Source: Anaerolinea sp.
Lineage (GTDB): Bacteria; Chloroflexota; Anaerolineae; SpSt-313
Assembly (NCBI GenBank): GCA_020725765.1
Contig: DYEI01000039.1
Span: 1 to 34,670 of the forward strand
DNA: 34,670 nt
Direction of reading: 5' to 3'
The notes below the pieces were generated by a model. That model made no database searches. It had not been told where the DNA came from and saw only the letters and a list, made by a program, of their open reading frames with translations. Within the stretch, counting starts at the first letter, position 1. Every line of letters starts with the position of its first letter. Positions 4,628 to 24,822 of the stretch are shown here, piece after piece. A program made the position numbers and the translations under genes.

Positions 4628-4716
4628 CCTTGCGAAAGCTCCGACCCTCACGGGCCGATGGGCCGCCTGCGACGACGACGAGGACCAGTGGGGCCTGTCG
4701 GGGAGCTTTCGCAAGG
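4628..4716. repeat. Long inverted repeat between binding-protein and permease genes
   Basis: Perfect 15-bp arms, CCTTGCGAAAGCTCC at 4628-4642 and its complement at 4702-4716, enclose 59 nt. Three more bases pair beyond a 2-nt bulge (GAC/GTC). It sits just after the stop of the solute-binding gene. Such intercistronic stem-loops often protect the abundant binding-protein mRNA and reduce permease expression. There is no U-run, so it is not a simple terminator. Confidence 0.7.
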
Positions 4717-4731
4717 CTCGCAACTGCATGG

Positions 4732-6288: not shown

Positions 6289-6328
6289 GGTATGCTCCTC
6301 CTCTCGCATAGGATAGCCACGGACGAAG

Positions 6329-6358
6329 CAGATACCACAGTCTCCACGATCCGGTCAG
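6329..6358 (-). promoter_or_regulatory. Possible promoter of the sugar-transport operon
   Basis: On the leftward strand, CTGACC and TATCTG are separated by 18 bp, and the -10 is preceded by TGTGG, giving the TGTGGTAT form seen at other promoters in this window. The implied leader to the binding-protein start is about 35 nt. The hexamers are weak matches. Confidence 0.35.
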
Positions 6359-6491
6359 CTTTTCTCGATACCCCCTCCTCTCTCGCTCTCTCTGTGGCCT
6401 CGGAGGCTCCGCTCTTGCCGATGAGAGCTCCCCCTGGCGCTGGATAGACCGCATGCAAGGCCGCAGCTATGCCGGCACGGACAGTCGCTTA

Positions 6492-6520
6492 TTGCCTGCT
6501 GGCTGCTGCTTGGCTATAAT
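6492..6520 (+). promoter_or_regulatory. Sigma-70-type promoter for the HTH/receiver gene
   Basis: TTGCCT, a 17-bp spacer and a perfect TATAAT on the rightward strand. Transcription would start near 6527, about 65 nt before the TTG start at 6591. It is divergent from the transporter operon. Confidence 0.6.
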
Positions 6521-6590
6521 CCACTATACTACGGAATGAGCATGGGATGGGTGCTTTCCGGCCTGTGTGTGGCCAGAGTGAGGACAGGAT

Positions 6591-7817: not shown

Positions 7818-8051
7818 TCCCAGTTCCCCGCCTCGGTCCGGCAGCGAGGTGACGCGACCTCCGGGCACGCTGTCGCCCAACAGTGACTGGGGCGGCTGCT
7901 CCGTCGCCAGCGCTCCGCTACACGTACCCTCACCGTCGCGTGTACTTCCTGGCGCTGAAGCCCGGCTGGTTCCACGGGGTGCACACCAGGCCACGCTTGC
8001 GGGCGGAGGCTCCAACGCCTATCCGCTCCACACCGCACCAGAATCCTGCCA

Positions 8052-10301: not shown

Positions 10302-10398
10302 AGGGTCCTCCTTCGCCAGTAGCTGGCCAGAGCCTGTCCCCGTTCTGGCCTGGGCCTGTCCCCATAACCTGCACGTTCCCGGCACTCTGTGCTACCAT

Positions 10399-10427
10399 AG
10401 TATAGGGCCGGAGACACCAGCCCGCAA
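10399..10427 (-). promoter_or_regulatory. Promoter for the hybrid histidine kinase
   Basis: On the leftward strand TTGCGG and TATACT are separated by exactly 17 bp. The implied leader to the GTG start at 10301 is roughly 90 nt. Confidence 0.55.
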
Positions 10428-10594
10428 GATGCATAGCGTACGCGGCCCCCGCGATTGAGCTTGTGCGGTGGTTCTCGATGCCGAGGGCGCCGGCCTGGCG
10501 CGGCTACCGTCCGAGAGCCATTCGGGCGCATAGCCTGGGTCGAAAGGGCTTCCAGTTCTTGCGAAAGAGAATGCTTTCGGAGGGCAACTCAGGG

Positions 10595-13537
10595 ATGAGA
10601 TGGGCCTCGCGTATCCTGGCAGTCCTGATTGTCGCTGGCAGACGCCTGTTCGCGCGATGGAGCCTGGCATTGGCGGTTGCCGCCGGCCTGGCGGTGATCG
10701 TGGCCCTGGCGGCCAGTCTGCCTGCGTACTCGGAGGCGATCAACTATCGCATGCTCGTGACCGAGCTCGGTGCCACGCCGGGTACCGGAGGGCAGGTGTC
10801 AAGGCGCTCGCCCTTTGCTTTCATGTTTCGCTATCTGGCGGGGCAGCGCGACCCGCTAGGTTGGGACGCCGTCGAACGGGTGGACGGATATCTGCTGGGT
10901 CCAGCAGGCGCTGAGCTGGATCTCCCCCGCAAGCTGGCCGTCCGCTACCTGGCGACCGACAACCTGAAGCTCTTCCCCACGATCGGCTCCGGCTATGCCG
11001 ACACGCGGGAGCCACTGGGCTGGGTCTCCTTCGGCGCCATAACCGACCTCGAGCCGCACATCGTCCTGCTGGAGGGACGCCTGCCCGAGCCAGCAAGTGG
11101 CACGCCCGGCGGGCCCGTGGAGGTGCTGGTCAGTGAGGCCATGGCCACCAGGCTCGGCCTGCAGCCCGGTGAGGCCTATATCGTGTTTGACGCCAACCAG
11201 AGTCTGCAACGTGGCAGCGAGTTCCTCGAGGTGCCAGTTCGCATCGCCGGTATCTGGGCGCCAGCTGACCCGCAGGAGGCATTCTGGTTCTACGGCCCCT
11301 CAGCCCTGGCCGAAGTGCTGCTGGTGCCCACGGCAAGCCTGCAGAACGCGCTCGGCACCTCTGCCGACCGGCCCATCTACACGGCCCTGTGGTATCTGGT
11401 GACAGATGGTTCCGGGGTGCGCACCAGCGATGTCGAAGGACTGCTCGGCCGCATCGCGGGCGTGCGACAGCGGGCGAGCGAGCTCCTGCCCGGCATCAGC
11501 CTCGATGCCTCTCCGGTTGAGGCCCTGATGACCTACCGACTGAGAACGGCCTGGCTCTCTATCCTCCTCTATGCCTTCAGCATCCCGATCGTGGGTCTGG
11601 TCCTGGCGTTCATTGCCATGGTGTCTGGCCTGGCGGTGGAGCGCCAGCGCGGCGAGATTGCTGTGTTCCGCAGCCGTGGGGCCTCGATGATGCAGGTTTT
11701 CGGTATTACCCTGGCCGAGGGCCTGCTGCTCGGCACGATTGCCCTGGCGGTGGGCCTGCCGGCCGGACAGTGGCTGGCGGGACTGATAGGCCGCACGCGC
11801 GGTTTCCTGGATTTCGGTGGGGAGACCAGCTTGCGGGTCACCCTCACCAACGCGGCCTGCCGCCTCGGCGTGGGGATGCTTGCCCTGGCGGTTCTGGCAC
11901 AGGCTGCCCCGGCCCTCGGGGCGGCGCGCCGCACGGTGGTCAGCGCCAAGCAAGAGCGGGCACGCAGGCTGCAACCACCGTGGTGGCAGCGCGCCTGGCT
12001 GGACGCGCTGCTCCTGGTCCCGGCGGGCTACGGCGCCTACGTTTTGCGCAGGCAGGGCACCATCGTGCCCTCAATGGCAGGCCCGACTCTGGCAGCGTGG
12101 GCGGACAACCTCCTCCCCAGCGACCCGTTCGAGAATCCCCTGCTGCTCCTGGTGCCGGCACTGACTGCTCTGGCGCTGACCCTGGTCGTGTTGCGTCTCC
12201 TGCCGCAGATCATGGCGGCGGCGGCGTGGCTGGCCGGGCACACCGCGAGCGTGGGGGTCCTCCTGACGGCCCGCCATCTGGCGCGCACCCAAGGCTACTA
12301 TACGGCGCCCCTGACGCTCCTCATCCTGACGCTGAGCCTGTCTACCTACACGGCAACCCTGGCACAAACCCTCGACCGCCACACCTACGACCGGAGCTAC
12401 TATGAGGTGGGGGCCGATGTGTGCCTCGTCGAAAGCGGGTACCAGACGGCCCGCAGCGGGCTGGTGCTCTCGGGGCTCCCGGGAATGGGGGGCGGTAGCT
12501 CAACGACCAGCGAGGCCGAGGAGCCCGGCTGGGAGCCACTTCTGCCAATCGAAGAGCACCTGCGGGCACCCGGCGTGGTGGCTGCGACACGTGTGGGCCG
12601 CTACCCCGCCTCGATCTACCTGGGGGGCAGCAAGCCGACCGGTGTGCTCATTGGTGTCGACCGCACCGTGTTCCCACAGGTGGCCTACTGGCGGCACGAC
12701 TTTTCCGCAGCCAGCCTGGGTGCGCTGATGAACGCGCTGGCCCTCGCAGATGATGGCGTGCTGGTCTCGCGGCAAAGCATGGCCGAGTACGGTCTGCAGG
12801 TGGGCGACCGGCTGCGTGTCGACACCATTGTGCTAGGCCGAGAATGCGAGCTCAACGTGAAGGTGGTGGGCTCCGTGGAGTACTTCCCCTCCTGGTATCC
12901 CTCGCACGGCCCGCTGCTGGTCGGCAACCTGGAGTACCTGTTCGAGCGCTCTGGGGGCTACGCCCCCTACGACGTGTGGCTGCGCACCGCCCCCACCCAC
13001 AGTGCTGACGATGTTGCCGCCAGCGTGCGAGACCTGGGCTTCCAGGTCTCGTCGGTAGCGGATGCCACAGCGCAGGTACGACGCGAGCTGCGACGGCCCG
13101 AGCGGCAGGGCCTCTTCGGGTTGCTCTCGATCGGCTTTGGCGCGGCAGCGCTGCTCACTGTGCTGGGGTTCTTGTTCTACGCCCTCTTTTCGTTCCACCG
13201 CCGTTCTATCGAGTTGGGCGTCCTGCGCGCCATCGGTCTCTCGGAAGGGCAGATGGTCCGCGCGTTGGCCGCCGAGCTGGCCTTCCTGCTGCTCACCGGG
13301 TTGGCAGCCGGGACGGCAATCGGCGTCTGGATCAGCCGGCTGTTCATCCCCCACCTGCAGGTAGGCAACAGGCCGGCAGAGCTGATCCCACCGTACCTGG
13401 TAACCATCGGCTGGCCCACCATCGCCCGCATCTATGCGCTGCAGAGCTTGATGTTCCTCGTGACGCTGGCGCTCCTGACAGTGATGCTCTCCCACATGCG
13501 CATCTTTGAGGCCATCAAGCTGGGCGAGGCGGACTAG
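10595..13537 (+). CDS. Large FtsX/MacB-type ABC permease
   Basis: A 980-residue membrane protein with two FtsX-like halves. An N-terminal membrane helix (about 20-45, ending in SLPAYSEAI) is followed by a MacB-like extracellular domain. Then come a membrane cluster around 360-460 containing ERQRGEIAVFRSRGAS, another membrane segment near 540-580, a second extracellular domain (about 600-820), and a terminal three-helix FtsX core with RRSIELGVLRAIGLSEGQM. That is the usual plan of lipoprotein- or peptide-handling permeases of the MacB/LolCE class. No partner ATPase is adjacent, and the flanking genes are in unrelated units. I chose the ATG preceded by GGAGG at 11 nt; an ATG eight codons earlier is possible. 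Substrate unknown. Confidence 0.85.
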   Translation: MRWASRILAVLIVAGRRLFARWSLALAVAAGLAVIVALAASLPAYSEAINYRMLVTELGATPGTGGQVSRRSPFAFMFRYLAGQRDPLGWDAVERVDGYLLGPAGAELDLPRKLAVRYLATDNLKLFPTIGSGYADTREPLGWVSFGAITDLEPHIVLLEGRLPEPASGTPGGPVEVLVSEAMATRLGLQPGEAYIVFDANQSLQRGSEFLEVPVRIAGIWAPADPQEAFWFYGPSALAEVLLVPTASLQNALGTSADRPIYTALWYLVTDGSGVRTSDVEGLLGRIAGVRQRASELLPGISLDASPVEALMTYRLRTAWLSILLYAFSIPIVGLVLAFIAMVSGLAVERQRGEIAVFRSRGASMMQVFGITLAEGLLLGTIALAVGLPAGQWLAGLIGRTRGFLDFGGETSLRVTLTNAACRLGVGMLALAVLAQAAPALGAARRTVVSAKQERARRLQPPWWQRAWLDALLLVPAGYGAYVLRRQGTIVPSMAGPTLAAWADNLLPSDPFENPLLLLVPALTALALTLVVLRLLPQIMAAAAWLAGHTASVGVLLTARHLARTQGYYTAPLTLLILTLSLSTYTATLAQTLDRHTYDRSYYEVGADVCLVESGYQTARSGLVLSGLPGMGGGSSTTSEAEEPGWEPLLPIEEHLRAPGVVAATRVGRYPASIYLGGSKPTGVLIGVDRTVFPQVAYWRHDFSAASLGALMNALALADDGVLVSRQSMAEYGLQVGDRLRVDTIVLGRECELNVKVVGSVEYFPSWYPSHGPLLVGNLEYLFERSGGYAPYDVWLRTAPTHSADDVAASVRDLGFQVSSVADATAQVRRELRRPERQGLFGLLSIGFGAAALLTVLGFLFYALFSFHRRSIELGVLRAIGLSEGQMVRALAAELAFLLLTGLAAGTAIGVWISRLFIPHLQVGNRPAELIPPYLVTIGWPTIARIYALQSLMFLVTLALLTVMLSHMRIFEAIKLGEAD

Positions 13538-15515: not shown

Positions 15516-16249
15516 AGCCAGTCGCTTTGCGCGCACCCATCTACCTGCTGGCCGGGCGCCCGACAGGGCGCCGTGGAGACGCAGATCCCCTCCTGGTCAG
15601 GGCCCTGGCCAGCGCCGGCGCCGCAAGCCCGAGCGTGGCCTACATCGGCGCTGCAAGCGACGATAGCCGCTCCTTCTTCGTCATGCTCTCCGAGCATCTG
15701 CGCGCCTGTGGCGCCGGCCCAGTGACCCTGGCACCGCTGGCCGGGCGCCGGGCCGCAGTCGACAAGGCCAGGGCGATCCTCGAGGCGGCGGACGTCATCT
15801 TTGTGAGCGGGGGGGACGTGGTGGCCGGAATGGCCGTGTTGGGCGAGCAGCAGATCGTGCCCTACCTCCGGGAGCTGTATGAAACCGGCAAGCCTTTCGT
15901 GGGTGTATCGGCCGGCAGCATCATGCTGGGGCAGCAGTGGGTGCGCTGGGAGGACCCGGCCGATGACGGCTCTGCCAGCCTCTTCCCCTGCATGGGGCTC
16001 GCACCCCTCACCTGCGATACGCACGGTGAGGCGGATGGCTGGGATGAGCTGCGGGCACTGCTGCGGCTCTCGCCGGAAGGGACCGTAGGCTACGGCATTC
16101 CCGCGGGGGCTGGGCTGCTCGTGCACCCCGATGGCACCCTCGAAGCGCTGGGCGCGCCGGTGCAGCGCTTTGTGCGCACGGTGCGTGCCGTCGCGCGGAA
16201 GCGGGATCTCAGGCCGGGGGAGGCGGAGAACGTGATGCGTGAGACGTGA
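15512..16249 (+). CDS. Peptidase S51 / dipeptidase E-like protein
   Basis: A 245-residue protein of the class-I glutamine-amidotransferase-like fold. The nucleophile elbow is GVSAGS with Ser133, as in aspartyl dipeptidase and cyanophycinase, and is preceded by the conserved VIFVSGGD segment (95-102). The family generally cleaves Asp-containing dipeptides or cyanophycin; the actual substrate here is unknown. Its ATG lies inside the stop of the PaaK-like gene. The last codons (NVMRET and the stop) are encoded by the first three units of the heptamer array starting at 16231. The natural C-terminus may therefore have been replaced or trimmed by repeat expansion. Confidence 0.82.
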   Translation: MKPVALRAPIYLLAGRPTGRRGDADPLLVRALASAGAASPSVAYIGAASDDSRSFFVMLSEHLRACGAGPVTLAPLAGRRAAVDKARAILEAADVIFVSGGDVVAGMAVLGEQQIVPYLRELYETGKPFVGVSAGSIMLGQQWVRWEDPADDGSASLFPCMGLAPLTCDTHGEADGWDELRALLRLSPEGTVGYGIPAGAGLLVHPDGTLEALGAPVQRFVRTVRAVARKRDLRPGEAENVMRET

Positions 16250-16391
16250 GACGTGATGCGTGAAACGTGATGCGTGAAACGTGATGCGTGAAACGTGAGA
16301 CGTGAGGCGAGAAACGTGATGCGTGATGCGTGAGGCGTGAGGCGTGAGGCGCGAAACGTGAAACGTGAGGCGTGAAACGTGAGGCGTGAGC
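16231..16391 (+). repeat. Heptanucleotide tandem array, 23 units
   Basis: Twenty-three ungapped 7-bp units fit CGTGANN, nearly all being CGTGATG, CGTGAAA, CGTGAGA or CGTGAGG; units 12 and 18 have a substitution in the core. The first three units are the coding end of the S51-like gene and supply its TGA. The remainder is intergenic, before the element's left end. Such heptamer arrays occur dispersed in some Chloroflexota and cyanobacteria (recalled, not searched). Confidence 0.95.
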
Positions 16392-16510
16392 CGTGGGGGC
16401 TCGGGTCTTGGTGGAAGGCGTTTGGCGGGTTTTGGGCCCCCCTTCGCGCCCCCTTAGCGCTCTTTCGCGATCCCAGCACGCGGCCCGGGTGTGGCATTCC
16501 CGACAACTAC

Positions 16511-16552: not shown

Positions 16553-16630
16553 TGCCTCAGCGCCCCTGGAGGGACTCGAACCCCCGACGACAGGGCTTAG
16601 GACGCCCTCGCTCTGTCCGCTGAGCTACAG
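16553..16630 (-). pseudogene. attL: tRNA-Arg fragment lacking its 5' end
   Basis: Identical to the tRNA-Arg(CCU) at the right end from its fifth base through the 3' end plus eight bases beyond. The first bases of the acceptor stem are replaced by element sequence (GTG instead of CCC), so the acceptor stem cannot form. This is the left attachment site. Confidence 0.92.
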
Positions 16631-16645
16631 CACAAGATGTTGTGC
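16630..16645. repeat. Dyad at the att core junction
   Basis: GCACAA-GATG-TTGTGC sits exactly where the 78-bp repeat ends and element sequence begins. It could be a binding site for integrase or an accessory recombination protein. This is inferred from position only. Confidence 0.4.
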
Positions 16646-16734
16646 CAGGGCCAGCACCCACCCACTACAGGTTGTGGTGCAACCTCGTCAGTTGACGACT
16701 CGCTTATGCCGAGTTCCTTGCGCTGATTCGGGCA

Positions 16735-16862
16735 AACAAAGAACCCGCCCAGGTGACTTGCACTCGGAGCGGGTCTCTGCTACACTACCACCGCTCAGGT
16801 GCGACCGCCACCTGGGCCACGCCTCGGGCTGTTCGAGCAGCGCCGAGGCTTCTTGTTGTCCT
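16735..16862 (-). ncRNA. Candidate structured small RNA with possible antiterminator
   Basis: The leftward extended -10 TGTGGTATAAT ends at 16869, giving a start near 16862. The predicted RNA folds into hairpin I (16821-16849, GCCTCGG arms plus a 4-bp inner stem), hairpin II (16796-16814, CAGGTG/CACCTG) and a terminator hairpin (16743-16774) followed by TTCTTTGTTT. The segment pairing in hairpin II can instead pair over nine perfect bases (16809-16817 with 16747-16755), which removes part of the terminator stem. No ORF of note is inside. It could be a regulatory RNA or an attenuator-like leader near the left end. I do not recognise a known family. Confidence 0.4.
16743..16774 (-). terminator. 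Intrinsic terminator
   Basis: ACCCGC/GCGGGT stem (plus two outer pairs across a mismatch) followed on the leftward strand by a U-rich tail TTCTTTGTTT. It would end the candidate RNA above and any read-through from the capsid gene. Confidence 0.55.
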
Positions 16863-16868
16863 AGCCCC

Positions 16869-16877
16869 ATTATACCA
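16869..16877 (-). promoter_or_regulatory. Extended -10 promoter
   Basis: TGGTATAAT on the leftward strand. No good -35 lies at 16-18 bp. A TTGACA is present but only 8 bp away, too close to act as its -35. Confidence 0.45.
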
Positions 16878-17049
16878 CAGCCTGTCAAGTGCTGCGCGCA
16901 CGGTCATTCTGGCCGTGGCGACGCTCCGCAGTTGTCCCAGGCGGACCGTCGACACCCCCCTACCCCAATTTCGCGGTCATACGAGCGCGATTGCCCGCCC
17001 AGTCTGCGACGCTCGTCGCTTGAGCGATTTTGACGCCCCTCCGAGTAGC

Positions 17050-17116
17050 GTGACGCCCCGGAGGAGGCAGCCGGGGCGTCACACCGGGAGGCAATCACCA
17101 CCGGAGCAGTGGTGAT
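17050..17116. repeat. Tandem perfect stem-loops 3' of the capsid gene
   Basis: Two hairpins lie 17 bp after the capsid stop. One has 8-bp arms ATCACCAC/GTGGTGAT (17094-17116). The other has 12-bp arms GTGACGCCCCGG/CCGGGGCGTCAC with a 9-nt loop (17050-17082). A further TGACGCCCC half-copy lies at about 17029. No U-run follows on either strand, so they are more likely mRNA-stabilising, protein-binding or packaging structures than simple terminators. Confidence 0.6.
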
Positions 17117-17132
17117 CATCGTAAGGAGCGCG

Positions 17133-18701
17133 TTACGAGCCCGCGCTCAGTTCGATCTCAACGATGGCAGCGGGCCGGAAGACTGCCAGCGCCCAGCGGC
17201 CTTCAGCGCGCCACCGGGTCAGGTTGCGCTCAAAGTCGGTAGCGCCGGCACTCGCGTCAAACACGTTCTCGGACCAGCTCAGGGTCACCTGCTCCCGCTC
17301 GTACTTGCGCACGGCTCTCAAGTCGAACGCCAAGCCGGTGCCCTCGGCGATCCGCGTCGACAACGTCACACGTGTCCCCCAAAGTTGGCGCCGAGCCCGG
17401 TCGACCGGCAAGGCCTGCCCGGGAGCGCCCAGCATGTACTGCCCGTCAGCGACGGTCATGAGCTCGATGGCTTCCCAGTCGTAAGGATGCAGCACAAAGA
17501 CGGCGCGGCTCGCCGGGATGCCCTGCGTCTCCAACGCCGTCAACGCCTTGCGGCAGGTGACGATGCGATCGGTGTCAAACTCCTGGATCAGGTGCCCGGA
17601 CACCTGCAGCAGCCCCTCCAGGTGGGGCGCCACACCGCTGCCGTTGAGGATTTCGTCCTCCAGGGCCAGCTCCAGCCCTTGTCGCAGGACTTCATCCAGG
17701 TAGCGCCGGAGATTGGCCACGTCGCTCAGCCACTGGCGTGGGATCGGCTCACTCAGGTGCGCGATGGTCTGCGCCTCCGCGACCACCTCGACGAGCTCGT
17801 AGGTGGAAGTCGGCTTCTTGGCCCCAAGTGCGACAGCAGTCGCGGCATGGGTCCGCTGCACCTCACGCAGGTACTTCACAGATGGCGAGGACAACCGCTC
17901 GTGCGGGATCGCCTGCAGGACGGTCTCGATGACCTCGCCGACCGCCGGGATGTACGAGGCCAAGCTCGGCACAGCCACGATCCCCGACGGCGTTAGTAAG
18001 TCCTTGCGCCCCCAGTCACGCCCAGCCATGAATGCTTGGGACCACGCGCCACCCTTGCCACGCTGGGAGGCTGCAAAGTCCAGGCCCTCCGACAGCTCCA
18101 TGATCTGGCGGCGGAGCGCCTCTTCGTCGTCAGTCTTCACCTGCTCCTTGACCTCTGTCTCCATTGCCATGTTTCCTTTCGGTTCGGGCGGCTCAACATC
18201 CGCCTCGCCGGCATGGCTCGGCAGCTGAGTGCGCCCGCTTTTGATCGCGACGGTCCGGGTGTCGATGCCGGCGCCACGCTGCACTGGGGCCACACCCCAG
18301 ACGTCCAGCTTCTTCAGGTAGCGCACGGATCGCCCGTCATGCTTCCCGTATTCCGAGTCGAGGATCTCGAACGTGTAGGACCACTCTTGTAGCGGGCCGA
18401 GCGCCTTCACGACGCGGTAGTGCTCCAGCCCGCCGGCGGTGTCGAGGAAAAACTGCCCCTCGACCACCGCCTTGCCGTCACGCTCGCGGATCACGCCCTT
18501 GCCGACCGGCAGGGAGCCGTAGTTGTGGTTCCACGCCTCGATCAGTGTCTCCTGCCCGTCGGTGAAAGCGCCCTTGAGTGTAACATCACCATCGTGGTCG
18601 ACCACGCCGAGGGTCGCAAACTCGGCGAGGAACTGGCCCGTTTCGTCGGCATCCGCCTTGAATTCCAGTGAAGCGTGGTATGTCTTGTGTTTTGGCATCA
18701 T
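17133..18701 (-). CDS. HK97 prohead protease-major capsid protein fusion
   Basis: A 522-residue protein. Residues 8-155 are an HK97-family prohead protease (S78-like) with the expected His59 (WNHNYG) and Ser108 (EWSYTF) and the conserved ending VAPVQRGAGIDTR. Residues 165-245 are a charged, Glu/Lys-rich linker resembling a scaffold or delta domain. Residues 245-522 match an HK97-fold capsid protein (PSLASYIPAVGEVIE early, the VFVLHPYDWEAIE segment later, and the terminal RAEGRWALAVFRPAAIVEIEL). The start ATG has GGAGG eight bases upstream. Inside, AAAGGA precedes ATG codons for residues 178 and 180, so a separate capsid protein of about 343 residues could also be made. No portal or terminase adjoins it. 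Confidence 0.9.
   Translation of the reverse strand: MMPKHKTYHASLEFKADADETGQFLAEFATLGVVDHDGDVTLKGAFTDGQETLIEAWNHNYGSLPVGKGVIRERDGKAVVEGQFFLDTAGGLEHYRVVKALGPLQEWSYTFEILDSEYGKHDGRSVRYLKKLDVWGVAPVQRGAGIDTRTVAIKSGRTQLPSHAGEADVEPPEPKGNMAMETEVKEQVKTDDEEALRRQIMELSEGLDFAASQRGKGGAWSQAFMAGRDWGRKDLLTPSGIVAVPSLASYIPAVGEVIETVLQAIPHERLSSPSVKYLREVQRTHAATAVALGAKKPTSTYELVEVVAEAQTIAHLSEPIPRQWLSDVANLRRYLDEVLRQGLELALEDEILNGSGVAPHLEGLLQVSGHLIQEFDTDRIVTCRKALTALETQGIPASRAVFVLHPYDWEAIELMTVADGQYMLGAPGQALPVDRARRQLWGTRVTLSTRIAEGTGLAFDLRAVRKYEREQVTLSWSENVFDASAGATDFERNLTRWRAEGRWALAVFRPAAIVEIELSAGS
18161..18178 (-). promoter_or_regulatory. Internal ribosome-binding site for free capsid protein
   Basis: On the leftward strand AAAGGA precedes in-frame ATG codons at 18170 and 18164 (spacing 3 and 9 nt) within the protease-capsid gene. 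The site falls at the protease/linker boundary, where a nested capsid start would be useful. Confidence 0.5.
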
Positions 18702-18922
18702 GAAAAAAACCTCCACGCGCGTCACATGGCCCTCGCCGCCGGGCGCAACTTACCGCATGGCTCTCGCCTTCGGCCTCGTTCACCTTTGGGCGCGGGCTGC
18801 TCGCCCTGGAGGCTCTCCTACTTACGGCGGGACTTACCGGTTGCCCGGCCTCGTCGCCGCCGCCTCGTGGGTCGCCCCACACTCTTCGGTTACCTCCAGT
18901 CTATGACAGACGGACGCCGTAG

Positions 18923-19075
18923 TCAAGTGCCGCGCCGCCAGAGGCGCAGGTCCCAGTGGGTCGCGGCCTCGGCGCTCTCGCAGGCGACGCGCCGCCGAGG
19001 CTTCCCGCTCAGGCTCTGCTCCACGACGGCCAGCGGCGCTTCTGTGGCGGGCTCGGCCTGGTCCTCGTCGTGCAC
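18923..19075 (-). CDS. Small hypothetical protein
   Basis: A possible 50-residue acidic-then-basic protein whose GTG start overlaps the TAG stop of the preceding gene, suggesting coupling. A longer form from an ATG at 19123 is possible. The C-terminus is Arg/Trp-rich (THWDLRLWRRGT). I do not recognise it, and there is no clear ribosome site. The 220 bp between it and the protease-capsid gene hold no clear gene. Confidence 0.3.
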   Translation of the reverse strand: MHDEDQAEPATEAPLAVVEQSLSGKPRRRVACESAEAATHWDLRLWRRGT

Positions 19076-19338
19076 TACATCCGCACTGTCACCGTCTGGC
19101 ACTCGTCCCCGTTCTGGTAGCATGTGATCTCCGCTCCATCGTCCGTCGAGCGCCACCGCCAGGCCAGGCGGTCGCGCAGGATGTAGGTGCAGCCGGTACG
19201 CAGCACGTATACCATCAAGTGCCCATCGGCGTCGGTCCTGAACCGGACCGGCTCATCCTCGTGCACCTCACCGGGAGGCAGGTGCGCGAAGAGCTGTCGC
19301 GCCTGCTGCGCCAGGACTTCGCTCAGGTCATCATCCAT
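19075..19338 (-). CDS. Small hypothetical protein of the element
   Basis: An 87-residue protein starting at an ATG preceded by AGAGGAAGAGGG. It has a helical, acidic N-terminus (MDDDLSEVLAQQARQLFAHL) and then a beta-rich part (VRFRTDADGHLMVYVLRTGCTYILRDRLAWRW). Its start overlaps the stop of the upstream gene by a few bases. No family recognised. The fold of the second half could be a small beta-barrel or barrel-sandwich domain, which is speculation from strand alternation. Confidence 0.65.
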   Translation of the reverse strand: MDDDLSEVLAQQARQLFAHLPPGEVHEDEPVRFRTDADGHLMVYVLRTGCTYILRDRLAWRWRSTDDGAEITCYQNGDECQTVTVRM

Positions 19339-19609
19339 CCCTCTTCCTCTTTCTGTGATCGACCGCGCCCGTCGCCAACCATCGCTCCAGACTGTCATCC
19401 AAGTCCAGCGCCGCCGCCAGCAGTCGCGCCTCGGGGCTCTGCAGCCACTCACGGGCCTCGGAGGGGCTGCCGGGGCCGTGCCAGGCCGGCCAGGGCCGCG
19501 TCTCCGCTGCATCCTTGACTGCCTGGGCCAAGATCGCGGCGGCGAGACGGCGCACCCCCGGCGAAGGCTCCTCGGCTGTGTCCTCAGAGCTCACCCGGCC
19601 GTAGGACAT
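19331..19609 (-). CDS. Small hypothetical protein of the element
   Basis: About 92 residues, helical, with repeated Trp (RPWPAWHG, EWL, RWL) and a basic tail (DHRKRKRDG). It overlaps the nuclease gene upstream and the 87-residue gene downstream, as expected in this compact operon. An earlier ATG at 19630 is also in frame; the two candidate starts lie in a short direct repeat (GGTTTGGCAT). Not recognised. Confidence 0.55.
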   Translation of the reverse strand: MSYGRVSSEDTAEEPSPGVRRLAAAILAQAVKDAAETRPWPAWHGPGSPSEAREWLQSPEARLLAAALDLDDSLERWLATGAVDHRKRKRDG

Positions 19610-19908
19610 CGCCAAACCATGCCAAACCATGCCTCGAAGTCTTGCAAGGTCATGAGTACCAGGTCACCGTCGTGGCGCTGGCCCATCTCATGGAGGATCA
19701 CCAGCGGCAGCCGGTGCTCAGGGCACCCGACACGGGCCTGGGCCAGTGCGCCCCGCAGCCATTGCGGCAGGGATCGGCGGCACTTCACTTCGACCGCCAG
19801 CCAGTCGGACACAACGTCCGGCCCAGACCGGCCACTCGGACCGGTCCGGCGGCCCTGAAGCCGGCCGGCCACGGCACGCTCGACGGCTTTCCAAACCGGT
19901 TCAGTCAT
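19591..19908 (-). CDS. PD-(D/E)xK-like small nuclease
   Basis: A 105-residue protein. The segment PDVVSDWLAVEVKCRRSLP (about 30-48) contains an acidic residue followed by E-V-K, the catalytic pattern of PD-(D/E)xK nucleases such as small Holliday-junction resolvases in phages. A Gln/Ala-rich helix (WLRGALAQARVG) and a strand (LPLVILHEMG) follow, in the usual order. It probably acts on element DNA during replication, recombination or packaging. It lies just after the iteron-like array and the replication ATPase. Family assignment rests on motif order only. Confidence 0.65.
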   Translation of the reverse strand: MTEPVWKAVERAVAGRLQGRRTGPSGRSGPDVVSDWLAVEVKCRRSLPQWLRGALAQARVGCPEHRLPLVILHEMGQRHDGDLVLMTLQDFEAWFGMVWRCPTAG

Positions 19909-19966
19909 CGCTCCCGCTCCATTCTCACTCCCTCAGAGGCAAGGCTGCCAACACGATTCCGAAAAT

Positions 19967-20047
19967 CTTGGCAGCCTTGGCAGCCTTGGCAACCTTGCCA
20001 AGGCTGCCAAGAATGTCAAGACTGCCAAGAATGCCAAGGCTGCCAAC
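19967..20047. repeat. Iteron-like nonamer array with 17-bp inverted repeat
   Basis: Nine contiguous 9-bp units with TTGGCA or its complement as core. Read leftward, the units are of the TTGGCANNC type, then switch to TGCCAAGG-type units in the opposite sense. The switch creates a perfect 17-bp inverted repeat (19976-19992 and 19995-20011) separated by 2 bp. Further isolated copies lie at 19941-19952 and 20060-20074. The array starts immediately after the stop of the replication-type ATPase. It could be the element's origin with Rep-binding iterons. On the leftward strand the big hairpin is followed by ATTTTC, so a terminator role is also possible. Confidence 0.7.
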
Positions 20048-21235
20048 TTACTCGCTATTTTGGCAGTCTTGCCCTGGGCGTTCGTCCTCGCCATCCAGGC
20101 GCCACCACCATTCATTGAAGGCGCGGCGCGACTCGACGCACAGCGTGTCCTTGACGCGCCTCAGCGTCCGCTCGGGGATGCCCTCGCGCTCGGCGGCGGC
20201 CACCACCTCGCTAGCCTTGACGGGTCCGTTGGCGAGCACCCTGCGCACAAAAGACGCGGCGCGTTCGCTTGCATTTTCCTTCGTGGGCGGCTCGGGCGCC
20301 TCGCCGAAGGTGACGCGCCCATCATCCTCGATGCCCATGCCCAGGGGCGCGGGGAAGCGGCTCAGGTTGCTCTTGAGCACCTGCAGCCGCAGCCGTGACG
20401 GGTGTGCCGGGTCCGGTGTGTCTAACGCCCACACAAGCCGCGCCGTCTGCAAGATCGCACTCGAACCGCGTAGCCTCTCAAGGTTAACCTCCTCGTTGCC
20501 GTCGAGGAGGCTGCGCTTGCGCAAGTGGTGCAACACCAAAAGCGGCTTACTTGTGTTACGGGCCAACTCGGCCAGCCACTTCGTTGATGCTAGGGCCCGG
20601 CTGTCGTTCTCGTCGGCACTGGCCCGGGCGCCAGACAGCGAATCGAGCACGATCAGCTTCACCTGCGGGTCCCGCGCCGCCTCTTCTGCCGCCTCCCGAT
20701 GCTTTCTGTTGAGGAGGCTAAAGTCCTCAAGCGGGTCAGGCAGACAGGTGCGGATGGCGGCCAGAGGCAGGCCCCATCGCGTTGCCCGGTCAACGTTGAG
20801 AGCGTGAGCGGCCTCGCTCTCAAGCCAGAGCACCGCGCCGGGCTCGCCCTCGAAGCGGCGCCCATCGGGCCAGGGCCAGCCCATCAGGTAGCAGGCTGCG
20901 ACACGCAGGGCCAGCGTGCTCTTGCCCAGGCCGGTGCGTGCTGCGAGAATGTGCAGGAAGCCGGGTGCAAGCCATCGCTCCCAGTGCCAGGTCACCGGGC
21001 CAAGGGTCGCGGCAGCCTGGGCCCAGGTTGAGAAGCCCGGTGTCTCCGCCTCGGTCGTCTCCCTGCGCCTTGCCGCCGCTGCGCGCAGCGCCTCGGCCTG
21101 GACGCGCTCCGGCGCGACCTCCCCGTTGTCCCGTGGCCAGTTATGGCCCAGTTCGCACTTATAGCCGGTCGGACCGGCCACGTCCGGCGGCCGGCCACAA
21201 ACGGGGCATACCAGGCGCGTCGTCACACTAACCAT
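20048..21235 (-). CDS. Zinc-ribbon AAA/RecA-like replication ATPase (RepA-type)
   Basis: A 395-residue protein. The N-terminus holds a zinc-binding site CPVC...C..GH (C10, C13, C27, H31). A RecA-like core has Walker A ARTGLGKST (99-107) and Walker B LIVLDS with D198, followed by LLVLHHLRK (sensor-like). A winged-helix-like tail (about 340-380, PVKASEVVAAAEREGIPERTL) completes it. This plan fits the RepA/AAA_25 helicase group of plasmids and phages, often with a primase-like zinc ribbon. It probably loads at or unwinds the element's origin, for which the adjacent nonamer array is the candidate. The ATG start has GGAGGAGG eight bases upstream. It overlaps the previous gene by 8 bp. Confidence 0.82.
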   Translation of the reverse strand: MVSVTTRLVCPVCGRPPDVAGPTGYKCELGHNWPRDNGEVAPERVQAEALRAAAARRRETTEAETPGFSTWAQAAATLGPVTWHWERWLAPGFLHILAARTGLGKSTLALRVAACYLMGWPWPDGRRFEGEPGAVLWLESEAAHALNVDRATRWGLPLAAIRTCLPDPLEDFSLLNRKHREAAEEAARDPQVKLIVLDSLSGARASADENDSRALASTKWLAELARNTSKPLLVLHHLRKRSLLDGNEEVNLERLRGSSAILQTARLVWALDTPDPAHPSRLRLQVLKSNLSRFPAPLGMGIEDDGRVTFGEAPEPPTKENASERAASFVRRVLANGPVKASEVVAAAEREGIPERTLRRVKDTLCVESRRAFNEWWWRLDGEDERPGQDCQNSE

Positions 21236-21572
21236 GATGTGGCCTCCTCCGGCGTCGCGCGATCTCCTCATCGAGGCGCCGCTTGCGCTCACGCAGCCAT
21301 TCAGCGTCAGGATCGTTGTCGAGGATGGCGAGCGCCATCGACACTCGGGTGTGTTCCAGGCGCAGGTGCTCGTCCGCCATCGTGGGCAGGTCTGCGTGGC
21401 CCCAGCGCTGCGCCCTCTCCCAGGACGTCGTCGGATTGGCGGCCAGCGACCGCGCCCACGCCACCAAGTCCGCGCCGCCCGGCCGGGCCTCAGCGGACCA
21501 GCAGGGCGGACGGTACAGCCGGTCCCGCCATTCCCGCGACCTAACTCGTTCGAAGGGAGGGGCGGACCTCAT
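21228..21572 (-). CDS. Hypothetical protein upstream of the replication ATPase
   Basis: A 114-residue, strongly charged protein. The C-terminal half is a long amphipathic helix (ADEHLRLEHTRVSMALAILD, then EWLRERKRRLDEEIARRRRR) with a basic end, suggesting coiled-coil or nucleic-acid contact. It starts in ATGA overlap with the gene before and ends inside the ATPase gene, so all three are probably translated together. It could be a helicase-loader-like accessory, from position only. Not recognised by sequence. Confidence 0.65.
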   Translation of the reverse strand: MRSAPPFERVRSREWRDRLYRPPCWSAEARPGGADLVAWARSLAANPTTSWERAQRWGHADLPTMADEHLRLEHTRVSMALAILDNDPDAEWLRERKRRLDEEIARRRRRPHHG

Positions 21573-21895
21573 AGCCGCACCCCCTCAAACAGCGTTAGCT
21601 GCCCCCATGTGGGGCTCACCTGCGGCTGTCGCTCGGGCGCGGCGCCGTCGACGGACCAGTAGGCCAGGGGCAGAAAGCGCTGTGGCCCGAAGCCGCGTTC
21701 TAGCGGCACCGAGAACGCGACAAAGGTGGCCCACGGCGTCGTGTACGTATGCCCTTCGCACTCCACTTGGAGGCACCTCACGCCCGCCGCTTCGAGCTGC
21801 TCCAACACCTCCGTGTGAAACGACCACCCCGGTGGCCGCCGCAGCATCTCGCCAGGCTTCGCTCGGCGAACGCCTACGCCGTTGCAAACGAGCAT
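21569..21895 (-). CDS. Hypothetical protein of the element
   Basis: A 108-residue protein if it starts at the ATG with AAAGGGG upstream. A longer form beginning at 22015 in ATGA overlap with the ribbon-helix-helix gene would add a low-complexity Gly/Ala-rich stretch that coincides with a candidate antisense RNA, so I prefer the short form. The core has a predicted alpha/beta pattern (EVLEQLEAAGVRCLQVECEG, then TTPWATFVAFSVPLERGFG). It ends LTLFEGVRL. No family recognised. Confidence 0.6.
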   Translation of the reverse strand: MLVCNGVGVRRAKPGEMLRRPPGWSFHTEVLEQLEAAGVRCLQVECEGHTYTTPWATFVAFSVPLERGFGPQRFLPLAYWSVDGAAPERQPQVSPTWGQLTLFEGVRL

Positions 21896-21905
21896 GACGA
21901 CCCCT

Positions 21906-21933
21906 TTGCCGCGCAAACGGATGCTGGTATAAT
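21906..21933 (+). promoter_or_regulatory. Rightward promoter inside the element
   Basis: TTGCCG, a 16-bp spacer and TATAAT with the extended form TGGTATAAT. It points against all the protein genes of the element. The same TTGCCG and TGGTA parts occur in the promoter at 22926. Confidence 0.6.
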
Positions 21934-21939
21934 GTGCGG

Positions 21940-22003
21940 CAGGGGAGTTAGGTCGGCCCCCCTGCCCTTGGCCGGTCGCCGCGCCCACGGCGCCGGCCTT
22001 TGT
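21940..22003 (+). ncRNA. Candidate antisense small RNA
   Basis: From the promoter at 21906-21933 the transcript would be about 64 nt. It ends in a strong GC hairpin (21970-21998: GGCCGG and CGCCG paired with CGGCG and CCGGCC, one bulged T, 6-nt loop) followed by TTTGT. It runs antisense to the leader or 5' part of the gene at 21569 and ends just before the stop of the ribbon-helix-helix gene. The geometry suits control of the downstream replication genes by antisense pairing, as in many plasmid copy-control circuits. Function not shown. Confidence 0.4.
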
Positions 22004-22011
22004 CCTCTCGA

Positions 22012-22197
22012 TCATCTCTCCTGCACCTCCGCGCTTTGCCTCCCGCCCTCGTGCTCGCTCTGTAACAGGCCGCGCCTTTCGAGCTCACGACGCAGCACGA
22101 GCGCCGCTTGCTCGCGCGGGTCGCGGCGCTGCCGGGCGGCCCATCGGACCAGTGCTTCCCGCTCCTCCGGTCGCAGATTGATGACCAGTCGCAGCAT
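22012..22197 (-). CDS. Ribbon-helix-helix-like small protein
   Basis: A 61-residue protein starting at ATG with GAGGAGG five bases upstream. The pattern is a short strand (LRLVINL), then RPEEREALVRWAARQRRDP, then EQAALVLRRELERRGLL. This is the strand-helix-helix plan of Arc/CopG-type DNA-binding proteins. Such proteins often repress replication or the integrase, or act as antitoxins. No toxin partner is obvious. It lies directly downstream of a strong terminator, so it needs its own promoter, which I cannot identify clearly. Confidence 0.65.
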   Translation of the reverse strand: MLRLVINLRPEEREALVRWAARQRRDPREQAALVLRRELERRGLLQSEHEGGRQSAEVQER

Positions 22198-22213
22198 CGG
22201 ACCCTCCTCAAAC

Positions 22214-22242
22214 AAAAAAGGCTGTGCCTCATCGGCACAGCC
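22214..22242 (-). terminator. Strong intrinsic terminator
   Basis: Perfect 9-bp stem GGCTGTGCC/GGCACAGCC with a 5-nt loop, followed on the leftward strand by TTTTTT. It ends transcription of the HTH gene at 22311 before the ribbon-helix-helix gene and so splits the element into separate transcription units. Confidence 0.85.
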
Positions 22243-22260
22243 ATCATAGCACACCCGCTG

Positions 22261-22298
22261 CCGAAGAAACCCGATTTTTCGAGTTTCTTCGGTTTATT
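22261..22298 (+). terminator. Intrinsic terminator on the rightward strand
   Basis: Ten-bp arms CCGAAGAAAC/GTTTCTTCGG with a further CGA/TCG inner stem around TTTT, followed by TTTATT. It would stop any rightward transcript, such as read-through from the candidate RNA at 21940, before it enters the HTH gene antisense. Confidence 0.65.
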
Positions 22299-22310
22299 CG
22301 GCAAACTCGG

Positions 22311-22904
22311 CTAGTCCATGTAACCGGCCCGTCTGGCCCAATTGCGCAGCGTGTCTACGTGGTAGCCCTCCCGATGCGCCGCCGCTTCCTGCGTCGTGCG
22401 GCCCGACTTCCATGCCTGCACCCAGCGTTCGGCAATCTCGCGCTTGTGCGCCCAGTCCTCGCGCTGCTCTAGTCTCCGCGCGCCGCCTCCACGAGTACGG
22501 TCGGAGGACTCTTGGCCTTCTGCACAGGTCGGGCCGCTCACGTCAGTGGCTCCCAGTGTCTGCCGCAGTTCCTCGATTAGCGCCTCATACAGTGGCCATT
22601 CCTCGTGTTCTTTGCCGGCTTCCCACGCGGCCTGAACTCGGCATGCGCTGGGCGAAAGCTCGAACACCCTGAAAGTAGCCCGGCACTCCAGGTCCTCGTC
22701 GTCCACATCGTCATACGGCCAGTCTCGATCGCTATTGTACCCGAGTGCACTCAGGTGTGTGACCGGACCGTCCTGCTGTTCCTTGCAGCGCACTCCCGGC
22801 GCTCTGCCCTTGATGTACCAGATTACTGTGGCCGCCGAAACGGGGACTCGTAGTTCTGTGCGCTGGCAAGTTGGCCGGCCTAGAAAGGCACATAATTCGC
22901 ACAT
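22311..22904 (-). CDS. HTH protein, possible regulator or small-terminase-like
   Basis: A 197-residue protein. An N-terminal segment contains Cys residues and an ATVIWYIKGRAPG stretch, and the middle is acidic (DDVDDEDLE). The C-terminal 48 residues form a clear helix-turn-helix (ERWVQAWKSGRTTQEAAAHREGYHVDTLRNWARRAG). I take the ATG at 22904 because upstream codons run through a perfect dyad and lack protein character. It could be a repressor controlling the divergent rightward promoter next to it. A packaging-redirecting small terminase, as in phage satellites, is conceivable because of the HTH type. That is conjecture. Confidence 0.6.
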   Translation of the reverse strand: MCELCAFLGRPTCQRTELRVPVSAATVIWYIKGRAPGVRCKEQQDGPVTHLSALGYNSDRDWPYDDVDDEDLECRATFRVFELSPSACRVQAAWEAGKEHEEWPLYEALIEELRQTLGATDVSGPTCAEGQESSDRTRGGGARRLEQREDWAHKREIAERWVQAWKSGRTTQEAAAHREGYHVDTLRNWARRAGYMD

Positions 22905-22909
22905 ACCAG

Positions 22910-22943
22910 AAGACCGCCTCCCTTCTTGCCGACAGGCGGTCTT
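22910..22943. promoter_or_regulatory. 34-bp dyad operator candidate
   Basis: Perfect 9-bp arms AAGACCGCC/GGCGGTCTT enclose 16 bp. The dyad covers the -35 and part of the spacer of the rightward promoter at 22926-22954 and lies six bases upstream of the start of the leftward HTH gene. It is a natural place for a dimeric repressor to act on both directions. As leftward RNA it would also sequester the GGGAGG near the HTH gene start. Confidence 0.55.
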
Positions 22944-22954
22944 TGTGGTACGAT
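22926..22954 (+). promoter_or_regulatory. Rightward promoter overlapping the dyad
   Basis: TTGCCG, a 17-bp spacer and TACGAT, with extended TGTGGTACGAT. It shares TTGCCG and TGGTA with the promoter at 21906. Confidence 0.5.
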
Positions 22955-22960
22955 GGTGTT

Positions 22961-23020
22961 GTCGGACCGCCTGCCCCGGTTCGACCGTGGCCCCAGGTGC
23001 TCGCACACCGTGGGGCTTTT
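22961..23020 (+). ncRNA. Candidate small RNA divergent from the HTH gene
   Basis: About 60 nt from the promoter at 22926. It ends with a hairpin (22990-23016: GCCCC and GGTG paired with CACC and GGGGC around a 6-nt loop, small asymmetric bulge) followed by TTTT. No ORF with a ribosome site is contained. It lies in the 190-bp gap between the integrase-side genes and the HTH gene. It may be a regulatory RNA or the leader of a rightward early transcript. Confidence 0.35.
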
Positions 23021-23064
23021 CCTTCGAGAAGTCTACTACTTTCGCCGCCCATTGCAAGTGCCTC

Positions 23065-23088
23065 GGGGGCGGGTGCCAGCCCGCCCCC
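23065..23088. repeat. GC stem-loop after the integrase operon
   Basis: Perfect arms GGGGGCGGG/CCCGCCCCC with a 6-nt loop, 7 bp after the stop of the 68-residue gene. No U-run. It is probably a transcript 3' end or barrier structure for the integrase-side genes. Confidence 0.55.
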
Positions 23089-23090
23089 TG

Positions 23091-23106
23091 TGCCTCAGCG
23101 CTCCTG
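23091..23106. repeat. Partial att-like sequence inside the element
   Basis: TGCCTCAGCGCTCCTG matches the first 16 bases of the 78-bp att repeat at 15 of 16 positions and is in the same orientation. It overlaps the stop of the 68-residue gene. Whether it is a relic of an older att site or chance cannot be decided from one copy. Confidence 0.4.
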
Positions 23107-23301
23107 CCGTCCTGGGAGGGGTCCGACCAGTAGCAACGCTCCGGCCCGGATCACCTCGGCGGGCTCACGCCCGTACTTCTCTCGGAAGCGTGCCCTTGCC
23201 TGGGCGGGTGGTGTGTCCGGATCGAACGCCAGCCACCAGCCGTACACTCGACGTAGCGGCTCGTTCAGCGCCAAAGTCCGCACGCTAGCTTTCGCCGTCA
23301 T
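23095..23301 (-). CDS. Small hypothetical protein near the integrase
   Basis: A 68-residue protein in ATGA overlap with the preceding gene. It has a conserved-looking core, WWLAFDPDTPPAQARARFREKYG, then PAEVIRAGALLLVGPLP. The pattern (Trp pair, Pro pair, FREKYG, then a hydrophobic strand ending GP) suggests a small compact fold. I do not know the family. It is probably co-expressed with the 128-residue protein. Confidence 0.65.
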   Translation of the reverse strand: MTAKASVRTLALNEPLRRVYGWWLAFDPDTPPAQARARFREKYGREPAEVIRAGALLLVGPLPGRQER

Positions 23302-23684
23302 TGCCGCTCGTCTCCAGGCACCAGTAGCCCCGTGCCACAGTCCTCGCCCACCTCCAGCGCCTCATCGAGGCTCAAGGGCCTCGCCAGGCCACACGCCCGC
23401 CCGAGCATTTCGAAGCTTCCGCCGACGTCCAGGTCCTCGGGCTGCACCTGGACCAGCTTCCGGGTGGTGGGCTCGCCCTGCCAGCGGGACCATGCCTCCA
23501 CGTAGACTACCAGCCTGTCGGCGCAGCGGTACAGCGTCTCGTCTACGCCCCGTGTGCCCCGCTCGTCGGTGTAGTAGCGACGGCTCCCGACCTCCTCGGC
23601 CTCGAACGTGACGGGGCGCAGGTTGTCCTGCTGGCGCCCGTCATAGACGACCGACGTTCCGATGTAGAGCGTGGTGGTTTTCAT
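23298..23684 (-). CDS. Hypothetical protein near the integrase
   Basis: A 128-residue protein starting at ATG with GGGAGG seven bases upstream. It is beta-rich at first (KTTTLYIGTSVVYDGR, then PVTFEAEEVGSRRYYTDERG), with a central Cys/Tyr segment (TLYRCADRLVVYVEAWSRW) and an acidic helical C-terminus. It lies 59 bp after the integrase stop. Longer versions of the frame would run into the integrase gene and are rejected. No family recognised. Confidence 0.65.
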   Translation of the reverse strand: MKTTTLYIGTSVVYDGRQQDNLRPVTFEAEEVGSRRYYTDERGTRGVDETLYRCADRLVVYVEAWSRWQGEPTTRKLVQVQPEDLDVGGSFEMLGRACGLARPLSLDEALEVGEDCGTGLLVPGDERQ

Positions 23685-23743
23685 CTCTGTGCCTCCCATG
23701 AGATGTATGCCAGCGGACCGGCGTCCGGCCGGCCCGGGGTCGC

Positions 23744-24676
23744 CTATAGGAGATTGTCCACGGGGCTGCCCCTCGCATGGGCAGCCCTCAAGTCCTCTTC
23801 CGTCTGGCGCAGGTAGCGCCGAATGACGCTCAAGTCCGCATGCCCCAGAAGCCGCTGCAGGCTTACCAGGTCCACGCCTGCGCGCAACGCTCCGATTGCA
23901 AAGGCGCGTCTGAAGGCGTGCAGCGCCGGCGCTTTCACACCGGCTAGGCGCGCCCGCTTCTGGGCGATGGCCCGTAGGCCGTTGTACGCCAGCCGTCTGC
24001 CCTCGGCGGTCACCCACAGGGGCGCCTCGCCGACGGGATTGCACCGGTGGCGCAGGTAGGCGAGCAGCGCTTTCCTCGCCCGGGCGCCGAGGAACGTCAC
24101 GCGGCTCTTGCCCCCCTTGCCGTGGCGGATGCGGAGCGCACCGGTCACCAGGTCCACGTCGCTCAAGTTCAGGGAGAGAAACTCGCTCGCCCGGGCGCCA
24201 CAGTCCAAGAGGCAGAGCAAGACGGCCCGGTCGCGGTCGCCGAGGAAGGTGCGGGGCTCGCAGGTGGCGAGCATGGCCCGCAGGCAGTCCAGGGAGATGG
24301 GAGGCAGCGGCTCCTGTGAGAGCTTGGGCGCCTGCACGCGGCTCATGGGATTGCGCCAGTCGTGGGGTTCGTACTCGCGTTCATACCAGCGGAAGAAGGT
24401 CTTCAGCACGCGGAAGGCGATGTGCTGGCCGCCTGCGTTGCGCGTCCTGCCAAGGTGCAGCAGGTAGCGACGCAGCAGGTCGGGCGTCACGGCCAGGGTG
24501 GTTGTGACGTCCTGCTCTTCAGCCCAGACGCGGAAGTAGCGGAGCTCGCGCCCATAGCGCTCGACGGTGCTGGGGGAGAGACGGCGCGCCTCGCAATCGA
24601 TGAGGAACGCGCGCACGTCTTGGAGGATGGGAGTTTGTGGGAGAATCGAAAGCCCTTGCGCTGCTGCAGTGTTCAT
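23744..24676 (-). CDS. Tyrosine recombinase / integrase
   Basis: A 310-residue site-specific recombinase. The N-terminal SAM-like core-binding domain spans about 15-115. The catalytic domain carries Arg162 (CGARASEFLSL), a basic beta-turn HGKGGKSR (185-192) with the catalytic Lys, H253-x-x-R256 (LHAFRRAF), His279 (LLGHADL) and the Tyr288 nucleophile (RRYLRQT). All catalytic residues are present, so it is probably active. It adjoins the 3' end of tRNA-Arg, its presumed target. The start is the second in-frame ATG, because the first would place a perfect hairpin inside the coding region. No excisionase is recognisable; the ribbon-helix-helix or HTH protein could fill that role. Confidence 0.93.
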   Translation of the reverse strand: MNTAAAQGLSILPQTPILQDVRAFLIDCEARRLSPSTVERYGRELRYFRVWAEEQDVTTTLAVTPDLLRRYLLHLGRTRNAGGQHIAFRVLKTFFRWYEREYEPHDWRNPMSRVQAPKLSQEPLPPISLDCLRAMLATCEPRTFLGDRDRAVLLCLLDCGARASEFLSLNLSDVDLVTGALRIRHGKGGKSRVTFLGARARKALLAYLRHRCNPVGEAPLWVTAEGRRLAYNGLRAIAQKRARLAGVKAPALHAFRRAFAIGALRAGVDLVSLQRLLGHADLSVIRRYLRQTEEDLRAAHARGSPVDNLL

Positions 24677-24684
24677 AGTGCGAA

Positions 24685-24720
24685 GTTCCCCCTGCCACCA
24701 CAAGCGGTAGTAGGGGGAAC
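24685..24720. promoter_or_regulatory. Dyad upstream of the integrase
   Basis: GTTCCCCCT/AGGGGGAAC arms of 9 bp enclose 18 bp, between the att site and the integrase start. The right place for an operator or recombinase arm site; as mRNA it includes the GGGGGA that may serve as ribosome site. Confidence 0.5.
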
Positions 24721-24740
24721 CTCGCCATACCACTACATCT

Positions 24741-24818
24741 TGCCTCAGCGCCCCTGGAGGGACTCGAACCCCCGACGACAGGGCTTAGGACGCCCTCGCT
24801 CTGTCCGCTGAGCTACAG
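24741..24818. repeat. attR: 78-bp direct repeat
   Basis: Perfect copy of 16553-16630. It covers all but the first four bases of tRNA-Arg(CCU) plus eight bases 3' of it. Such a long identity block means the element carries almost a whole tRNA to restore its target. Confidence 0.93.
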
Positions 24819-24822
24819 GGGC
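24749..24822 (-). tRNA. tRNA-Arg (anticodon CCU)
   Basis: A 74-nt cloverleaf: acceptor GCCCCTG/CAGGGGC with discriminator G, D-arm GCTC/GAGC, anticodon stem AGGGC/GCCCT with loop GTCCTAA (anticodon CCT), T-arm GGGGG/CCCTC with loop TTCGAGT. CCA is not encoded. It is the intact, element-restored copy at the right junction. Confidence 0.95.

Follow-up and report, generated by a model that had tools for sequence, protein, structure and literature searches.

A tRNA-integrated element of an Anaerolinea genome carrying a fused prohead protease-capsid gene: a candidate capsid-remodelling phage satellite

The window, meaning the whole 34,670-nucleotide stretch analyzed here (contig DYEI01000039.1 of the Anaerolinea sp. 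assembly GCA_020725765.1, a metagenome-assembled genome in 570 contigs), contains a small integrated element whose only structural gene encodes a fusion of a prohead protease and a major capsid protein (MCP). The element is delimited by an exact 78-bp direct repeat with a spacing of 8188 bp, giving a size of 8.19 kb; the repeat comprises most of tRNA-Arg(CCT), and all of the element genes are on the minus strand (Table 1). A first-pass annotation, made from the letters alone, had described these repeats at a tRNA together with an integrase, a replication-type ATPase with iteron-like repeats, and a nuclease, and each of them was confirmed: the nuclease matched RusA-like/Holliday-resolvase proteins in PHROGs and had an invariant PD..ExK motif, and the 9-bp arrays between the AAA and nuclease genes were genuine tandem and inverted repeats. 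No clean empty site was found: in a same-genus genome, the beginning of a related integrase gene was present at this tRNA, but the contig ends at that point, and a same-family genome possessed the tRNA and right flank without the left-flank genes. Next to the distal attachment repeat, on its chromosomal side (16220-16395), lie about eight 21-bp copies of a CGTGAGG-like 7/21-bp repeat.

Phage_capsid (PF05065, 1.3e-27) and Peptidase_S78 (PF04586, 4.6e-5) were found in one open reading frame (ORF). This ORF of 522 codons is intact, its base composition by codon position is of the coding type, and the protease retains the family residues H67 and S116. The confidence of the AlphaFold model was high for the protease and medium to low for the MCP (mean predicted local distance difference test score, pLDDT, 66); Foldseek placed the MCP among the capsids of D3, phiXacJX1, and HK97, in agreement with the sequence. 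An encapsulin was ruled out by these nearest folds and by the fused S78 protease. The gene probably starts at ~18701 with GGAGG upstream, 374 bp beyond the preceding ORF, and this gap includes a weak promoter-like site, while the region of the hairpins on the 3' side (17030-17140) folds at -61 kcal/mol (z -5.43). Due to the gap and the two strong hairpins, the capsid gene looks like a separate expression unit, and the tight overlap of genes reported in the first-pass annotation held for parts of the operon, but not for this gene. An ATG inside the fusion at 18170, with AAAGGA upstream, suggests that free MCP may be produced alongside the fusion. The segment preceding the conserved MCP core (the scaffold) was ~54 residues from this internal start (~76 from the end of the protease) versus 124-249 in phages, and the MCP retained 15 of the 21 phage-invariant residues (six lost), compared with 91-100% in phages left out in turn.

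Table 1. Features of the integrated element (positions in the window).
Feature	Position	Strand	Basis
Distal attachment repeat, 78 bp, truncated tRNA-Arg copy	16553..16630		exact match to 24741-24818
Two strong hairpins directly 3' of capsid gene, possible transcription end	17040..17132	-	fold
Prohead protease (S78)-MCP (HK97 fold) fusion, 522 aa	17133..18701	-	PF05065, PF04586, phrog_10, phrog_80, HK97-fold model
Longest ORF of fusion gene, 530 aa	from 18725	-	
Possible separately translated MCP, 345 aa	17133..18170	-	internal ATG with AAAGGA upstream; inference
Promoter-like site 5' of capsid gene, TTGACT-17-TAGACT, 9/12	18898..18926	-	consensus scan, weak
87-aa ORF, function unknown	19075..19338	-	PHROGs: no match
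99-aa ORF, kept in sibling elements L029/L054 and L112	19331..19630	-	phmmer 4e-7, 8e-12
PD-ExK nuclease, RusA/Holliday-resolvase-like, family hallmark	19591..19908	-	phrog_244 7.5e-6, alignment A1, family search
Inverted arrays of 9-bp iterons, putative replication origin	19967..20046		also 3' of AAA gene in relatives
AAA_25/DnaB-like replication ATPase (longest ORF from 21292)	20048..21235	-	PF13481 1.1e-28
114-aa ORF, common to sibling elements	21228..21572	-	phmmer 4e-14 to L029
148-aa ORF, common to many sibling elements	21569..22015	-	phmmer
80-aa ORF, common to sibling elements	22012..22254	-	phmmer
Helix-turn-helix protein, probable regulator	22311..22889	-	HTH_28 E 0.0069, below curated cut-off
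68-aa ORF, function unknown	23095..23301	-	no match
139-aa ORF, homologue in viral contig L122	23298..23717	-	phmmer 9e-21
Tyrosine integrase, 329 aa	23744..24733	-	PF00589 2.6e-25, phrog_1 3.8e-37
Proximal attachment repeat within tRNA gene	24741..24818		repeat comparison
tRNA-Arg(CCT), target gene, kept intact	24748..24822	-	ARAGORN

Among the element ORFs, no Pfam or PHROGs match to a portal, large terminase, or tail protein was obtained, and the head/packaging matches in PHROGs all fell in the fusion gene, for its protease and MCP, as the first-pass annotation had claimed. A weak PHROGs match to a terminase small subunit (E 0.023) falls inside the fusion gene. A hidden terminase small subunit was rejected: with a profile from three sibling proteins, the best match in the window (E 0.17) was outside the element. 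Head-tail connectors also had no match in the element ORFs, and an identity as a capsid-forming phage-inducible chromosomal island (cf-PICI), which would have portal, large and small terminases, and connectors, was ruled out by the missing portal and terminases. A scan of the element with a defence library gave no match, and peptide patterns revealed no close relatives of the AAA protein in the viral and genome collections.

The nuclease profile matched 21 out of 396 genomes of the class, and searches with the integrase and AAA protein added more (loci are numbered with L). Nine elements had both borders and were 4.8-9.9 kb in size: that of the window, L043 (6053 bp), L054 (8067 bp), L105 (4751 bp), L107 (7018 bp), L108 (6404 bp), L109 (8852 bp), L145 (~9950 bp), and L153 (~7280 bp). 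Their integration sites are tRNA genes (Arg, Gly, Gln, or Leu); most relatives possess small ORFs matching 21569-22254 and an AAA or primase gene, and 9-bp iterons were present 3' of the AAA gene in the window, L041, L043, L044, L054, L107, and L112. The window element has these features of the lineage: the A1 nuclease, an AAA gene followed by the 9-bp iterons, and direct repeats at a tRNA. A terminase-small-subunit-like gene was found in five relatives (L044, L107, L108, L145, and L153; PHROGs and profile). The distal slot, which holds the capsid gene in the window, is taken up in L054 by a D12 methyltransferase and a SacI-like endonuclease and is empty in L112, from the same bacterial family. 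Since the backbone recurs without the capsid gene and the slot contents vary, the capsid gene is, as judged from gene content, the occupant of a slot in a satellite-like backbone rather than what survives of a late operon. In viral contigs L119, L121, and L123, the same nuclease lies just 5' of terminase and portal genes (read from translations in L119 and L121, with no profile match), and this gene order indicates that the backbone has a phage origin. Literature searches covering a tRNA-integrated satellite-like lineage of Chloroflexota found no description of one. The L054 element (3177-11317) is located at tRNA-Gly; an integrase and another terminase-small-subunit-like ORF (186-704) just upstream of it suggest a neighbouring element. 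In L115 (1-13358), a 13.3-kb stretch enclosed by tRNA-Arg repeats contains at least two integrases and may represent stacked elements.

The two halves of the fusion differed in their similarity to phages. The protease was 67-75% identical to those of Chloroflexota and viral-contig phages, in which the MCP adjoins and the portal is directly upstream of the protease wherever the available stretch reaches that far; the MCP was only 33-36% identical to those of the same phages, whereas phage pairs with proteases 65-75% identical had MCPs 54-66% identical. In the HK97-type Chloroflexota phages (L057-L061 and L002-L006; protease 61-75% identical to that of the element), protease and MCP are separate, the scaffold domain is long, and the portal is upstream where the sequence extends to it, in contrast to the fused gene with a short scaffold in the element. 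The portal gene of L006 (2319-5486), a close phage relative, has 1055 codons with an apparent intein (Cys start, His-Asn end). The MCP half alone had no relatives in IMG/VR and only ~30% identity in phage records. In the MCP tree, the element formed an end branch of 1.85 that was not placed with the Chloroflexota phages, but their union in one clade was not rejected (p-AU 0.176); this MCP sequence may thus either have diverged rapidly or have been replaced by that of an unsampled phage. The element AAA protein was not found in the records or genomes of five related phages (two records being fragments); in one of these genomes, the nuclease had a weak match at another site. Derivation from a known prophage by simple deletion was not supported, because the phages with the nearest capsids are without the AAA protein and the relatives of the backbone are without late genes.

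Proteases without a capsid gene occur in other elements. At a tRNA-Lys of Pseudonocardia nigra (L068, 2871-18465), an integrase, a primase, a prohead protease, and a terminase small subunit were found, and MCP and portal were not. Viral contig L122 (92-10974) has an S78 protease, a PD-ExK nuclease, an FtsK-like protein, an AAA/DnaB protein, and serine and tyrosine recombinases, with no MCP in the available stretch. If such cases are real, these elements may benefit from the protease by itself.

Satellites are known to borrow and resize the head of a helper or, in the case of cf-PICI, to encode the complete gene set for head and packaging (PMC12409344, PMC10690885). The terminase-small-subunit-like genes in five relatives are a hallmark of packaging hijack and favour a satellite, and the window element is probably one. 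The earlier proposal of a satellite that needs portal, motor, and tail from outside was supported in that none was found in the element; neither of the two findings named there as refuting it was made: no portal or large terminase was hidden among the ORFs, and simple deletion of a full prophage was not supported, as the backbone recurs in a family of capsid-less elements and the records with the closest full-phage capsid relatives are without the AAA protein. The closest model for the role of the capsid gene is Ccm from Staphylococcus, the one capsid-homologue case solved experimentally: in SaPIbov5 (a Staphylococcus aureus pathogenicity island, SaPI), this HK97-fold homologue is 24% identical to the helper capsid protein with a scaffold 44 residues shorter, occupies pentamers, and alone suffices to convert the prolate helper capsid into a small isometric one (PMC8569155, PMC5052747), while forming no shell by itself (PMC8569155). 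The element likewise has an HK97-fold capsid homologue without portal or tail and a scaffold (delta) domain shorter than that of phage MCPs. Because the sole structural-type gene is strongly diverged and has a truncated scaffold, as in Ccm, the best overall explanation in our estimation (probability of about 0.5) is a satellite of a small tRNA-integrated lineage, the protease-MCP fusion of which may co-assemble with and remodel a helper HK97-type capsid. Judging from the family, the element would be integrated and excised by its integrase and replicated from the iterons by the AAA protein, with portal, terminase, and tail supplied by a helper phage. A local HK97-type phage would have been the source of the fusion, which would since have strongly diverged; the fusion would enter the helper procapsid, where the MCP part may occupy capsomer positions and the shortened scaffold segment may bias assembly toward a smaller shell, whose maturation would fall to the attached protease. 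The predicted outcome is a small head matched to 8 kb of DNA and a starved helper.

Several observations weigh against Ccm-like remodelling. Ccm carries no protease, and the fusion in the element is unexplained by this model; neither a terminase small subunit nor a further capsid-size gene was found in the element besides the fusion gene. Only one capsid-bearing member was found in the lineage, so that conservation of, or selection on, the capsid gene is not measurable within it, and the same-genus genome with the related integrase start had no capsid match. L041/L062, from the same class, has a protease with no visible MCP, its contig ending 270 bp later. No helper was identified: a search for portals in the same genome gave only one, in a myovirus-like prophage on contig C108. 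That prophage (G000:C108; L052, L053), with a terminase, portal, and distinct MCP of its own, is a possible helper.

Under the reading of the first-pass annotation, the element supplies its own shell: the fusion would build a complete small shell, and the helper would contribute just portal, terminase, and tail. Such an element would stand between classical PICI and cf-PICI. Both a protease with its H67/S116 site and an HK97-fold MCP are present, and the internal start would yield free MCP; on the other hand, the scaffold segment is less than half the phage length, 6 out of 21 invariant residues are lost, and the similarly truncated Ccm forms no shells alone (PMC8569155). Since the short scaffold, the lost residues, and the divergent MCP fit a co-assembling homologue better, we now consider an own shell to be unlikely; the accompanying suggestion that the gene may set head size fared better, the anatomy being consistent with Ccm-like resizing of a helper capsid (PMC8569155, PMC5052747). 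It is likewise unlikely that the fusion serves as an anti-phage accessory gene, in which a dominant-negative capsid and protease poison the assembly of a competitor and have no part in the element's own packaging. The methyltransferase and endonuclease in the slot of L054, the empty slot of L112, the apparent independence of the gene as a unit that has a leader and hairpins of its own, and the protease-only versions in L041, L068, and L122 all accord with this, but the defence library gave no match, and capsid interference in Ccm systems is small-head formation, so that the two readings overlap. We think it rather improbable that the distal slot is a weapons slot, in which the phage-derived fusion acts independently as a poison of phage assembly, exchangeable with restriction-modification genes (L054), and the protease-only versions of L041, L068, and L122 mis-mature procapsids.

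A remnant of head genes, left from a deleted prophage and kept by chance, would be compatible with the MCP lacking some invariant residues and with the nuclease lying beside terminase and portal in L119, L121, and L123. However, the ORF is intact with coding-type composition and a conserved protease site, the attachment copies are identical, the backbone recurs without late genes, and the records with the closest capsid relatives are without the AAA gene; a remnant therefore appears quite improbable, and the first-pass view that this is not a decayed prophage was upheld by the family of capsid-less elements and by the phage relatives of the capsid lacking the AAA protein.

If Ccm-like remodelling by the element is true, the capture of a phage capsid gene as a capsid-size weapon arose independently, in a phylum far from Staphylococcus and with a maturation protease attached, which would suggest that the strategy of Ccm is open to satellites of HK97-type phages in general. 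Beyond this, the element speaks for a larger lineage of compact, tRNA-integrated, satellite-like elements among Chloroflexota-type bacteria.

The first-pass annotation compared the element with capsid-forming satellites of the cf-PICI type, which, like the element, have their own MCP and head protease; however, cf-PICI encode the whole head/packaging set of portal, both terminases, and connectors (PMC10690885, PMC12409344), none of which was found in the element. Classical PICI with a terminase small subunit resemble the siblings of the element, in which such genes accompany a replication module at a tRNA, but differ from the window element, which is without one. Two other groups are closer. 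Candidate PICIs of Mycobacterium with integrase and MCP, including phiRv1 and phiRv2, were proposed earlier (PMC10654092), and a capsid-bearing satellite-like element is accordingly not new in itself; as in the element, those members with tyrosine integrases are at tRNA genes and some encode replication proteins, whereas phiRv1 has a serine integrase and several members add terminase or scaffold genes (PMC10654092). SaPIbov5 and other cos-type SaPIs with Ccm differ in phylum, and SaPIbov5 has no prohead protease (PMC8569155), which is fused to the MCP in the element. In spite of these differences, both are small integrated satellites, probably so in the case of the element, with no portal or tail (PMC8569155, PMC5052747), and in both an HK97-fold homologue, strongly diverged and with a shortened scaffold (delta) domain, is the sole structural-type gene.

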